Assembly: GCF_023169965.1 (NCBI RefSeq)
Contig: NZ_AP025592.1
Coordinates: 248,001-312,000 of the forward strand
Source of the DNA: Anaeromyxobacter paludicola
Lineage (GTDB): Bacteria > Myxococcota > Myxococcia > Myxococcales > Anaeromyxobacteraceae
Direction: 5' to 3'
DNA: 64,000 bases
The translations under genes were made by a program, and so were the position numbers. How positions within the stretch are numbered: the stretch's first letter is position 1; each line of letters starts with the position of its first letter. A model generated the notes under the pieces. That model was not told the origin of the DNA, ran no database searches, and was given only the letters and a program-made list of their open reading frames with translations. Shown in pieces: positions 25,909 to 58,897 of the stretch.

Positions 25909-25997
25909 CCGCTCCCCCTCCCTGTCCCTCCCCCGCTTCGCGGGAGAGGGGAAGAGGAGCGCAGGGTGGGCTGGTATCGCGCGCGCTTCGCGGCACT

Positions 25998-26020
25998 CCC
26001 TCCCCACTGCGTGGGGAGGG
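25998..26020. repeat. REP-like palindrome, intergenic copy
   Basis: CCCTCCCCAC, loop TGC, GTGGGGAGGG: a perfect 10-bp stem, followed by a GGGGGAGGGGCG tract; sister of the copy inside addA (2645-2667). A second, weaker stem around CCCGC-TTC-GCGGG lies ~60 bp to the left. Both sit in the 144-bp gap between convergent DUF4265-like and truD genes and could also act as terminator or mRNA stabiliser. Confidence 0.6.
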
Positions 26021-26052
26021 CGGGGGAGGGGCGATCCGCGGCTCCCGGCCCG

Positions 26053-28258: not shown

Positions 28259-28981
28259 ATGCTCATCGACCTGCACGTCCACTCCCGCCACACCCAGGGC
28301 TGCGCGCTCGAGGTGCGCGACGTGCTGCGCCGCGCCCGGGAGGAGGGGCTCGACGGCGTGGTCTTCACCGACCTGAACGGCCTCGAGGCGCTCCCGGAGG
28401 CGCGGGCGGCGGCGAAGGAGGAGGGGGTGCTCGGCCTCGTCGGCGCCGAGCTCGTGACCGACCACGGCCACTACCTCTGCTACTTCCCCGAGCCGGAGAA
28501 GGTGCCCGCGCCGGCGCAGCTCTTCGGGACGCCGCCCTGGCCGGTGCGCGAGGTGCTCGCGCGCGTGACGGCGCTCGGCGGCGCGGTGGTGGCGGCCCAC
28601 CCCTACGACAAGACCATCGACCGCCCGTGCGGCGACTTCATCTTCACGCTCGACGGGCTCGCCGCGGTGGAGGGGCTGCACGCGCGCAAGCGCGGTCCCG
28701 CCAACGACCTCGCCATCGAGGCGGCCGACCACCTGAACCTGCCCTGCGTGGCCGGCTCGGGCGCGCTCGGCTCGCTCGACGAGCTCGGGAAGGCGGCCAC
28801 CCTGTTCCGCCGGCCGGTCGCGAGCGAGGCCGACCTCGTGGCGCAGCTCAAGGCGGGCACGGTCCACTGCGTCGCCATCGGGGTGACCCCCCAGCCGGCG
28901 GAGGCCGCGCGGCGGGGCCCCCGTCGCGACGAGCGGGGCGGACGCGGCGATCGTCGCGGCGGCCGGCGCGAGCGCCGCTAG
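28259..28981 (+). CDS. PHP-domain metal-dependent phosphoesterase
   Basis: A 240-residue PHP-fold hydrolase. MLIDLHVHSRHTQGCALEV carries the first metal-binding HxH, followed by DGVVFTDLNGLEALPEA, GLVGAELVTDHGHYLCYF, VVAAHPYDKTIDRPCGDFI and LPCVAGSGALGSLDELGKA. Family members hydrolyse phosphoester bonds (nucleoside phosphates, 3',5'-bisphosphates), but the substrate cannot be told. The last ~25 residues are an Arg/Gly-rich basic tail (RGPRRDERGGRGDRRGGRRE), unusual for the family and possibly nucleic-acid binding. TTATCT lies 28 nt before the ATG. Ends 4 bases into the convergent lipoprotein gene. Confidence 0.8.
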   Translation: MLIDLHVHSRHTQGCALEVRDVLRRAREEGLDGVVFTDLNGLEALPEARAAAKEEGVLGLVGAELVTDHGHYLCYFPEPEKVPAPAQLFGTPPWPVREVLARVTALGGAVVAAHPYDKTIDRPCGDFIFTLDGLAAVEGLHARKRGPANDLAIEAADHLNLPCVAGSGALGSLDELGKAATLFRRPVASEADLVAQLKAGTVHCVAIGVTPQPAEAARRGPRRDERGGRGDRRGGRRERR

Positions 28982-35956: not shown

Positions 35957-35980
35957 GCCCCCCGCCGCGCCGGCGGCTCA

Positions 35981-36141
35981 GAGCCTGTGAGGGAATCCTC
36001 GGACCGAGCCAGGCGAGCGAGACGCGAGCAGCGCAAGGCGCGACGACCGAGCATACCGGAAGGTATGTGAGGGAGGAGCAACGCGGCGATGCGACGCGGA
36101 TCGTTCGCCGTGGCGACGGGAGGGGATTTCTTCACAGGCTC
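35981..36141. mobile_element. 161-bp MITE-like element with 20-bp terminal inverted repeats
   Basis: Ends GAGCCTGTGAGGGAATCCTC (35981-36000) and, on the other strand, GAGCCTGTGAAGAAATCCCC (36141-36122): 17 of 20 positions match. The trinucleotide TCA flanks both sides (35978-35980, 36142-36144), consistent with a 3-bp target duplication; the right-hand TCA is also the stop codon of the tldD-like gene. An internal palindrome CATACC-GGAA-GGTATG lies at 36052-36067. No coding capacity. The element occupies the whole convergent gap. Confidence 0.75.
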
Positions 36142-53853: not shown

Positions 53854-54594
53854 ATGCGCGTCCTCGCCATCGTCCCGGCGTACAACGAGGCCCGGAACCT
53901 CCCGGGCGCGCTCGCCGCGCTGCGCGACGCCGCCCCCGGGTGCGACGTCTGCGTGGTGGACGACGGCTCGACCGACGACACCGCGGCGGTGGCGGCCCGG
54001 CTCGGCGCGGTGGTGCTCCGGGAGCCCGTGAACCTCGGCATCGGCGGCGCGGTGCAGACCGGCTACCGGTGGGCGGCCGCGCGCGGCTACGACGTCGCGG
54101 TGCAGGTGGACGGCGACGGCCAGCACGACCCGGGCCAGCTCGCGGCGCTCCTCCAGCCCATCCTCCGCGGCGAGGGCGACCTCGTGATCGGCTCCCGCTT
54201 CCTCGCCGGCGCGGGCGGCGGGTTCCGCTCGACGGCGCTCCGGCGAGCCGGGATCCGCTACCTCTCGCTCTTCCTCCGGCTCCGCTGCGGCGTCCTGGCC
54301 ACCGATCCCACCTCCGGGTTCCGCGCCGCCGGGCGGCGCGCCATCGAGCTCTTCGCCCGCCGCTACCCGTCCGACTACCCGGAGCCGGAGGCGATCGCCG
54401 TGGCGGCGCGGGCCGGGCTGCGCGTCCGCGAGGTGCCGGTGACCATGGCCGAGCGGCGCCACGGCCGGAGCAGCATCGACGCCTGGCGGACCCTCTACTA
54501 CCTCCTCAAGGTGTCGCTGGCGCTCCTGCTCCTGCCGGTGCGCGAGGCGGCGCCGCTGCCGGCGGGCGAGCCGCGCCCGGAGGGACCCGCGTGA
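53854..54594 (+). CDS. family 2 glycosyltransferase (DPM1-like)
   Basis: A 246-residue GT-A enzyme: RVLAIVPAYNEARNLPGALA, CDVCVVDDGSTDDTAAVAAR, LREPVNLGIGGAVQTGYRWA, AVQVDGDGQHDPGQLAALLQ (DxD and QHDP), VIGSRFLAGAGG and TSGFRAAGRRAIELFARRYP. Closest to dolichol/polyprenyl-phosphate hexose synthases, which charge a lipid carrier with a sugar from a nucleotide donor. ATG 53854 lies 5 bp after the previous stop. Overlaps a DUF2304 gene (GTGA), a frequent partner of this subfamily. Confidence 0.88.
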   Translation: MRVLAIVPAYNEARNLPGALAALRDAAPGCDVCVVDDGSTDDTAAVAARLGAVVLREPVNLGIGGAVQTGYRWAAARGYDVAVQVDGDGQHDPGQLAALLQPILRGEGDLVIGSRFLAGAGGGFRSTALRRAGIRYLSLFLRLRCGVLATDPTSGFRAAGRRAIELFARRYPSDYPEPEAIAVAARAGLRVREVPVTMAERRHGRSSIDAWRTLYYLLKVSLALLLLPVREAAPLPAGEPRPEGPA

Positions 54595-54962
54595 GCCCCG
54601 AGCCCATCCTCGCCCCGCGGCTGCAGGTCTTCGCGGTCGCCGTCCTGCTGGTGCTCCTCGGCGCGGTGGCGCGGCTGGTCCGCCGCCACCAGCTCAGCCT
54701 GCGCGACAGCCTCCTCTGGCTGCTCTCGACCTTCGCCGGCCTGGTGGTGGCCCTCTTCCCCGAGCTGCTCACGCGCTTCTCGGCGCTGCTCGGCATCCGG
54801 GTGCCGAGCAACGCGCTCTTCGCGCTCGCCTTCGTCTACCTGCTCGGGAACCTGCTCGCCGCCAACATCGCCATCTCGGCGAGCGCCACCCGCGTCCGGC
54901 GGCTCGCGCAGGAGTGCGCGCTCCTGCGGGCGGAGCTCGACGAGCTCAGGCGCCGGGGGTAG
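54591..54962 (+). CDS. DUF2304 small membrane protein
   Basis: A 123-residue protein with three hydrophobic segments (LQVFAVAVLLVLLGAVARLV, SLRDSLLWLLSTFAGLVVAL, NALFALAFVYLLGNLLAANI) and a C-terminal coiled-coil (RVRRLAQECALLRAELDELR). The RRHQLSLRDSLLWLL motif is characteristic of DUF2304, almost always encoded beside a DPM1-like GT2. Probably a membrane partner or anchor of that enzyme. GTG start coupled to the GT stop. Last intact gene before the inverted-repeat scar. Confidence 0.85.
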   Translation: MSPEPILAPRLQVFAVAVLLVLLGAVARLVRRHQLSLRDSLLWLLSTFAGLVVALFPELLTRFSALLGIRVPSNALFALAFVYLLGNLLAANIAISASATRVRRLAQECALLRAELDELRRRG

Positions 54963-54974
54963 CCGAGAGGCCGG

Positions 54975-56049
54975 TCACTTAGTGTCTTCCGCTGTAGCTC
55001 CCTGTCAGGGGATGCGGCGTCGGCGCGCGCGCCGATCCGTCCGCCGGCGTGAGTCTGTTTCGACCAACGGCCCCCTCCAGCGAGCGGGTATTGGGCAAAG
55101 ACTACGACGGAAGGGACACGCGCGACCGTTGGCGCCGAGCTCGGCGGCGGCGCCGCCGCCTCGCCGGACGGATGCTGCGCGCGCGAGCGCAGGGGCGCGC
55201 GCGACGAGGCCGCGCCCGCGAGATGGAGAACACTCGCCGGGAGCTCGCCACGTTGATGCGCTTGTAGGCGGCCTCGTCAGAGAGGTGGAGCACGCTCACG
55301 CAATAGGAGTGCATCGAGGGGCAGGCGTGGTTGAGGTAGAGCCCTGCGGGCATCGACCTCGGCGAGGTGCGCGACGAGCTCGGCGGTGGCCTCGCGCTCG
55401 CGCCGGACGAGTGAGACGAGGGCTTCGAGCAGCGCGTGGTCGGACAGTGCTGCCAGGTCGGAGGAGAGCAGAGCGTTCATACGCTCCGTTCTACCAGCGG
55501 TTTTCGAGCCCTCCGGGGAGGGGGCTGGGCGGGGCGTGGCCGGGCTTTCCCGGAGCAGCCTCCGCTCTCCCCCGGAGACGGTGCGCAGGGCGCGCAGGAC
55601 GAGCCAGGCACGCTGAGAGGGGAATCCTCAGCGCGCGGGACCGTCGCGCGTCGTGAGGACCTGAATCCTGGTCAAGCGAAGAATGGATCCAAACCGGGTG
55701 CATGGGTGAAAAGCCGGACCGGCAAACATGGAGCGCACTCACCGTGAACGCCCTGACACGAGCCGTCCCCGGGGACAGCTCGTGCCCGGCCCGTCCGCGC
55801 GGGCGCGGCCTCGTTTCACGCGCCCCTGCGTTCGTGCGTGCGGACACGTCCGGCGAGGCGGCGGCGCCGCCGCCGAGCGCGGCGCGAACGCCCGCGCGTG
55901 TCCCTTGCCTCCTGGTCTCGGCCCAAAGGCCGCTCGCTGGGGGCGGGGCCGTTGGTCGAAGCAGACCGACCCCGGCGGACTGGCCGAAGCCCGGGCTGCA
56001 GGCCGCCCCGCGCCCCCTGACGGGAGCTACGGCGGAAATCGTCAAGTGA
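54975..56049. repeat. long diverged inverted repeat (~250-bp arms) around a broken HNH gene
   Basis: The left arm (~54975-55235) and right arm (~55790-56049) align in opposite orientation. Exact shared blocks: 32 bp (55139-55170 with 55847-55878), 16 bp (55059-55074 with 55945-55960) and 14 bp (55111-55124 with 55893-55906). The outer ends read CACTTAGTGTCTTCCGC and, on the other strand, CACTTGACGATTTCCGC. The centre (55240-55790) holds an HNH-endonuclease relic and sequence I cannot identify. There is no intact gene in the whole 1.1-kb gap between the DUF2304 gene and gmd. Confidence 0.75.
55240..55480 (-). pseudogene. HNH-endonuclease (DUF222-type) gene remnant, frameshifted and truncated
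   Basis: Starting at the ATG at 55480 the frame reads MNALLSSDLAALSDHALLEA, VSLVRREREATAELVAHLAE, VDAR; the sense then continues in another frame as GLYLNHACPSMHSYCVSVLH, LSDEAAYKRINVAS. Together these match the N-terminal ~75 residues of the multicopy myxobacterial HNH proteins (recognised from memory of that family). The break is explained by one extra C/G in the 55342-55344 triplet on the plus strand. After ~55240 the sequence merges into the left arm of the inverted repeat, so the DUF222 core and the HNH domain are missing. Confidence 0.75.
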
Positions 56050-56061
56050 GCGGCGCCGCGG

Positions 56062-58869
<2,808 letters not shown>

Positions 58870-58897
<28 letters not shown>

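Follow-up and report, generated by a model that had tools for sequence, protein, structure and literature searches.

A multi-copy HNH-endonuclease unit with inverted arms between convergent genes of Anaeromyxobacter paludicola

The HNH relic and its arms

The stretch analysed here, referred to as the window, comprises 64,000 nucleotides of the Anaeromyxobacter paludicola genome (contig NZ_AP025592.1, positions 248,001 to 312,000). At window positions 54960-56064, two inverted arms enclose a frameshifted and internally deleted HNH gene, and the neighbouring genes, one for a small membrane protein (54591-54962, plus strand) and gmd (ending at 56062, minus strand), converge on this unit. The earlier note on this DNA had described inverted arms of about 250 bp with exact blocks of up to 32 bp, and the alignment of 54970-55220 with 55798-56054 agrees, giving 79.2% identity over 260 columns (210 bits) and a longest exact block of 32 bp (copies at 55139-55170 and 55847-55878). 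The same pair was also recovered in a DNA search (E=1.8e-57), and the best of 97 random 270-bp window segments aligned with the right arm as a control scored 35.6 bits, compared with 210 bits for the arms themselves. As a symmetric structure the unit reaches as far as the stop codons of its neighbours, TAG at 54960-54962 and TAG at 56062-56064 (minus strand), each located 12 nt from a TCAC motif. The HNH relic lies on the minus strand, starts with the ATG at 55480 and ends after about codon 76, and the join of the deletion (about 55232-55250) falls just inside the left arm. Comparison with an intact copy, relative to which about 1.1 kb is missing, bears out the earlier description of a gene frameshifted by one base and truncated at the left arm. 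The parts of the unit are as follows.

54960-54962, plus strand: TAG, the outermost symmetric triplet on this side, with which the small membrane-protein gene to the left terminates (gene call; TAG-TCAC spacing of 12 nt)
54963-55231, no strand: left arm, of beta type and on the 3' side of the HNH gene (inverted match 54970-55220)
54975-54978, plus strand: TCAC end motif of the left arm (sequence, alignment)
55139-55170, plus strand: 32-bp exact block, left copy, containing the 30-bp core (arm alignment, genome-wide block search)
55204-55220, plus strand: second conserved arm block, 17 bp, left copy (identical across the nine arms compared)
55232-55250, no strand: point at which the sequence is rejoined after loss of about 1.1 kb, from about HNH codon 77 to the 3' region (comparison with the intact copy)
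55251-55480, minus strand: HNH relic, N-terminal 76 codons or so, with a one-base frameshift near 55344 (comparison with the intact copy)
55481-55797, minus strand: conserved HNH leader with a possible promoter and ribosome site, by eye (alignment of five copies)
55798-56061, no strand: right arm, likewise of beta type, on the 5' side of the HNH gene (inverted match 55798-56054)
55798-55814, minus strand: second conserved arm block, right copy (block comparison across arms)
55847-55878, minus strand: 32-bp exact block, right copy (arm alignment, genome-wide block search)
56046-56049, minus strand: TCAC end motif of the right arm (sequence, alignment)
56062-56064, minus strand: TAG, the outermost symmetric triplet on this side and the codon at which gmd stops (gene call, TAG-TCAC spacing)

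Seven copies and two types of end

The unit is present in seven copies at separate loci of the A. paludicola genome (4,590,331 bases), that of the window included. A DNA search, not counting eight short hits of 43-46 bits at other places, revealed five further loci whose boundaries were set at the neighbouring stop codons (2687258-2689311, 3430347-3432525, 3993056-3995071, 3691897-3692662 and a partial one at 3882712-3883205). The seventh copy, L239, was found by a pattern search with the end motif and consists of ends only, an alpha end being joined to a beta end within 172 bp. The copy at 3430347-3432525 (L032) is intact and has an open HNH gene (426 aa, L032 2461-3738) between its arms, the entire unit of about 2.18 kb being made up of an alpha arm, a leader, one HNH gene and a beta arm. 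In L031 and L033 the HNH gene is broken within its proline-rich middle, L034 and the window copy have suffered large internal deletions, and L035 retains one end. HNH sequence is kept in 5/7 copies, with no HNH match in L035 and L239. At the other HNH loci of this genome (L116, L240 and L241) a search for an arm-like pair found none.

The arms had been suggested to be the ends of a unit that carried the endonuclease, and the flanks of the intact HNH gene, which had been proposed as the place to look, indeed bear arms of the same family. The 30-bp core of the exact block, CTCGGCGGCGGCGCCGCCGCCTCGCCGGAC, occurs 10 times in the genome (nine exact, one with a single mismatch), each time inside one of the six larger units, and gave no hit in five other genomes scanned. 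Since the exact block is confined to these units and the intact copy has arms of the same family, the arms are neither particular to the window site nor foreign to intact HNH genes. The window feature is almost certainly a dead copy of a mobile, multi-copy HNH unit.

The block (28 of its 30 bp) and the second block of 17 bp are identical in all nine arms compared, a set that leaves out L035 and the truncated L034_5. Beyond these conserved blocks the outer arms have diverged widely and fall into two types, alpha and beta, with identities of 69-82% among the four alpha arms of L031-L033, 48-85% among six beta arms and 31-46% between the types. The end of L035 leans towards alpha (52-66% to alpha, 39-49% to beta) and one end of L239 (L239_5) is alpha (60-78% to L031-L033); the beta type of the other (L239_3) is a BLAST assignment, the cut-out used for the identity table having held flanking sequence and scored lower against beta than against alpha. 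The intact unit and L031 are of the form alpha-HNH-beta and their own arms are alike only over the inner 135 bp or so, L033 is alpha/alpha, and L034 and the window copy are beta/beta. The apparent length of the arms in the window copy is due to both of its ends being of beta type. Over 465 bp L033 and L034 share 97.6% identity, and at the exact block they then switch arm type, the signature of an exchange of ends at this point. Exchange between inverted ends is described for IS elements (PMC3004938). The proposal that the window feature represents two collapsed copies thus survives in part, as its like ends (beta/beta) do indicate end exchange between copies, but with a single HNH relic and a single leader it is one internally deleted unit rather than two full units collapsed together.

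Relatives, empty sites and the insertion context

With the intact protein as query, 22 of the 24 family genomes searched yielded matches, 1 to 39 per genome, these figures being match counts in which broken genes are counted more than once. A scan of GTDB genomes with two short peptide patterns returned 94 relatives, from which 80 loci were kept, nearly all from Anaeromyxobacter or other Myxococcota and a few from other bacteria. In genome G006, copies are often 88-95% alike over 1.9-2.3 kb, well past the gene, and a short end motif close to ATTCRTCACAWSTC is, by eye, common to the units of G006, G009 and G010. Long inverted arms are not general among HNH loci: among 40 others (39 in other genomes plus L116), an inverted pair of at least 85 bp near the unit ends is found only in L088 and L091, all four arms of which contain an identical inner stretch, and a pair of 37 bp is found in L111.

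Sites without the unit exist in relatives. G012, which is 80% complete, is the one further Anaeromyxobacter genome that the family search included. At the window site its flanks are 92% and 86% alike and the stop codons are 121 bp apart; the gap holds two palindromic repeats and nothing that matches the unit. The earlier note had considered that the scar might mark a joint at which a cassette was exchanged. However, the same facing gmd and membrane-protein genes adjoin in G012 as well, with no unit between them, which means that the unit is not the mark of a cassette exchange. Two more sites lack the unit in G012, with 10 bp (L033) and 242 bp (L031) between the stops. In this set of comparisons a few GC-rich matches to the unit of 31-38 bp, in L231 and L237, were disregarded. 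Among units of G001, no copy is present at the L101 site in G002 (50 bp between stops; flanks 95-98% alike) or G003 (3 bp), at the L098 site in G007 (29 bp; 94-96% for the flanks), at the L103 site in G008 or G003, or at the L100 site in G009, G003 or G006. What appear by eye to be partly deleted remnants are present in G002 (L098 site) and in G007 (L099 site). In the closest pairs (L101 with G002, L098 with G007) the entire short gap between the stops differs by eye, as if replaced, and simple insertion with a short duplication is therefore not what is seen. A clean target-site duplication, sought at the A. paludicola copies and in the G001 empty-site comparisons, was not found.

All seven A. 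paludicola copies (7/7) lie between convergent genes. Convergent pairs make up 10/60 of the neighbouring gene pairs in the window, a rate at which seven out of seven has a probability of about 4e-6, a figure that is inflated by selection against damaging insertions; such selection may explain part of the bias, units avoiding genes anyway. Elsewhere, convergent placement holds for 6/7 units in G001, 3/4 in G009, 3/7 in G010 and (fully) 8/20 in G006. The stop codons that border the six larger units are TAG in 11/12 cases, compared with 26/61 in the window (binomial 6e-4). By eye, 11/13 ends have a TAG placed 11-13 nt outward from the TCA(C/G) motif, usually the stop codon of the neighbour; at the other two the triplet is CAG (L033, right end) or TGA (L239, alpha end). 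At the right-hand side of L032 the TAG is distinct from the neighbour's stop, a TGA further out, and the TAG thus seems to belong to the unit end or to the target. At gmd and at the genes on either side of L031, the TAG of A. paludicola corresponds to a TGA in G012. The gene to the right of the window unit also terminates several codons sooner in A. paludicola than in G012. Among seven genomes examined at gmd that lack the unit there, the gene ends in TAG in four (G002, G007, G018, G021) and in TGA in three (G003, G010, G012). CTAG flanks L031 and L034 on both sides, but not L032 or L033.

Two repeat types were considered as general insertion targets, and neither is put forward as one here. 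Arrays of GGTCGN hexamers also lie far from HNH copies in G006 (among the matches listed). In G010, 4/22 of the CTCTCCC palindromes found, nearly of one form, lie at a distance of some 480-540 bases from an HNH gene, and these may be part of the unit instead of the target.

Several side observations concern such repeats and the gaps between convergent genes. The (GGTCGN)n arrays, in one orientation, flank many HNH units of G006 on both sides (L077-L096), with 773 forward and 616 reverse overlapping pattern hits across that genome; they also occur in G009 and G010, and none is present in G001. Within the window, the 144-bp convergent gap at 25909-26052 contains two palindromic, REP-like repeats resembling CCCTCCC..GGGAGGG, of the same kind as the sequence at the unit-free window site of G012. 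A further convergent gap (35957-36141) contains a repeat-like stretch, GAGCATACCGGAAGGTATGTGAGGGA, of which one more copy with two mismatches lies at position 871074 of the genome, and convergent gene ends overlap by 4 bp (CTAG) at 28978-28981 and by 28 bp at 58870-58897.

The HNH protein and possible routes of spread

The intact A. paludicola protein itself matched no Pfam family at E<=1, but it aligns through the invariant H332, N347 and H355 columns. All 26 relatives (26/26) match PF01844 (HNH) at E<=0.01. DUF222 (PF02720) is matched by 6/26 relatives at E<=0.01 and, in a set of seven relatives, by one (L097, 27.3 bits, cut-off 24.4). No transposase family was recognised in the HNH protein of the intact unit with Pfam or NCBIfam, and nine further open frames in or across L032 1964-4512, a scan that set aside three frames running far outside the unit or containing the HNH gene, matched no Pfam family at E<=0.01. 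A structure model of a relative from A. soli (400 aa, mean pLDDT 72.9, pTM 0.38) starts with a helical N-terminal domain that is predicted with confidence, followed by a disordered linker, a pair of helices and an HNH domain. Residues 3-134 of this model (m5e68586c56a6) align with Spo0J (4umk_D) at Z 11.1 (rmsd 3.1, 117 aligned), and 11 more ParB/Spo0J/Noc entries appear at Z 8.4-9.9 among the first 13 rows; the match is that of an all-helical domain at Z 8-11, a range that also holds chance matches, with the unrelated Raf1 reaching 9.3. The best Foldseek match is McrA (E 0.062), and the HNH part of the model compares with McrA-like and CBASS Cap5 HNH domains at Z of about 5-6. The model is suggestive of a ParB/Noc-like DNA-binding domain combined with an HNH nuclease. 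Median dN/dS values of 0.21-0.52 in five paralogue sets, picked for intact genes, are as would be expected if a working protein were needed for spread.

We favour the scenario, to which we assign a probability of roughly 0.6, that this is a mobile HNH unit whose own protein acts on the arm block to bring the ends together and cut, with copies becoming fixed between convergent stops. The mobility of the unit is well supported by the seven loci, the intact gene, the ends-only derivative, the empty sister sites, the conserved sites in the arms and the convergent context. The mechanism is what we infer, and that the HNH protein drives movement by recognising the arm blocks, although the best supported of the mechanisms, has in our judgement slightly less than an even chance of being correct. 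The protein, predicted to consist of a helical ParB/Noc-like N-terminal domain for DNA binding, a proline-rich linker, a helical pair and the HNH nuclease, would bind the conserved block of each arm, pair the ends and cut. Cutting would start insertion, and repair would then fix copies in the short gap between convergent stop codons without harm to any gene. Recombination at the exact block would swap arm types and give rise to alpha/alpha and beta/beta copies such as that of the window. A further step, for which our confidence is low, is to propose an autonomous class of element whose sole protein joins a ParB/Noc-like domain to HNH, pairs two inverted and nearly invariant arm sites and cuts with HNH instead of a DDE, HUH, serine or tyrosine site, its new copies filling the gap between convergent stops and giving both neighbours a fresh TAG.

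It is possible, though unlikely, that an unrelated transposase acting in trans moves ends with the GCAATGCCAGTCAC motif by cut-and-paste into TA or CTAG-like targets, in which case the HNH gene would be a passenger and the 172-bp ends-only copy an ordinary MITE. The existence of that copy speaks for this reading, and a short target duplication would be consistent with the TAG beside 11/13 ends and with the CTAG that borders both L031 and L034 on either side. However, direct duplicates fail for L032 and L033, and the intact unit holds no recognised transposase. Moreover, the HNH family recurs in 22/24 genomes while the arm block is absent from the five others scanned, and dN/dS is below 1 in intact paralogues. 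Still less probable is a free-standing intergenic homing endonuclease that cuts the unit-free allele in another cell, whereupon recombination copies the unit along with the whole intergenic gap. Intronless homing in phages offers a precedent, and such a process would account for orthologous sites being occupied or empty between close species and for the difference of the whole gap between stops, but homing alone does not place copies that are 80-95% alike at unrelated loci of one genome, nor does it explain paired inverted sites. That the arms are bidirectional terminators or REP-like intergenic repeats spread by gene conversion, colonised once and by chance by an HNH gene, would suit the position of all seven copies at convergent gene ends, the palindromic REP-like repeats of G012 at the window site and the two copies (L035, L239) without HNH match. 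Yet the arm block is confined to these units and HNH sequence has been retained in 5/7 copies, which makes this explanation highly improbable.

The mobile unit that we favour can be set beside several known systems. Sequence exchange between copies is reported for REP13E12 of mycobacteria (PMC13061034, PMC10589994), and a repeat of this type is given as a putative prophage attachment site (PMC13061034). REP13E12/DUF222-HNH repeats are, like the Anaeromyxobacter unit, multi-copy, with exchange between copies and with a gene encoding an HNH part and, as in some relatives of the A. paludicola protein, a DUF222-like part. Features that may set the Anaeromyxobacter unit apart from REP13E12 are its block-bearing inverted arms, its ends-only derivative and its placement between convergent stops, and the A. 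paludicola protein itself lacks any Pfam match. Inverted ends with shared motifs and derivatives with internal deletions or ends only are reminiscent of IS elements and MITEs, whereas the intact unit has no recognised transposase, two types of end and no target duplication that could be found. Free-standing HNH homing endonucleases are likewise single HNH nuclease genes in intergenic DNA that are present or absent at orthologous sites; the Anaeromyxobacter unit, by contrast, occurs in many copies at unrelated loci and has paired inverted sites. An HNH domain of similar type is found in IscB/OMEGA systems, but the NCBIfam match is weak and confined to the HNH stretch (NF040563, 13.7 bits against a cut-off of 175; 15.4-28.9 bits for seven relatives), and we rejected this assignment. 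A structured guide RNA in the leader found no support, the L032 leader (one sequence) folding no better than its shuffles (z +0.99) and having no Rfam match, and we rejected an HNH-bearing intron, as L032, L036, L082 and L104 gave no Rfam match at gathering score.

No description of such a unit in Anaeromyxobacter was found in the open-licence literature, judged by titles and the starts of abstracts. Units of this kind seem to be spreading within this soil-bacterial family, in A. paludicola always between the tail ends of facing genes. Their full anatomy is visible, from the two ends and the conserved inner sites to an intact gene, derivatives with deletions, a form reduced to its ends, and empty sites, and whether the HNH protein moves the repeat, and how convergent placement arises, can be tested directly with one protein and two short DNA sites.

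Two minor observations concern HNH loci of other genomes. The HNH subfamilies L104-L105 and L106-L110 of G010 differ in their N-terminal halves and share the C-terminal HNH part and the right flank at 77-81%, which looks like an exchange of domains or ends. In G006, L086 has an 82% inverted pair (1177-1337 and 1648-1815) wholly upstream of its HNH gene, possibly a nested or inverted partial unit.
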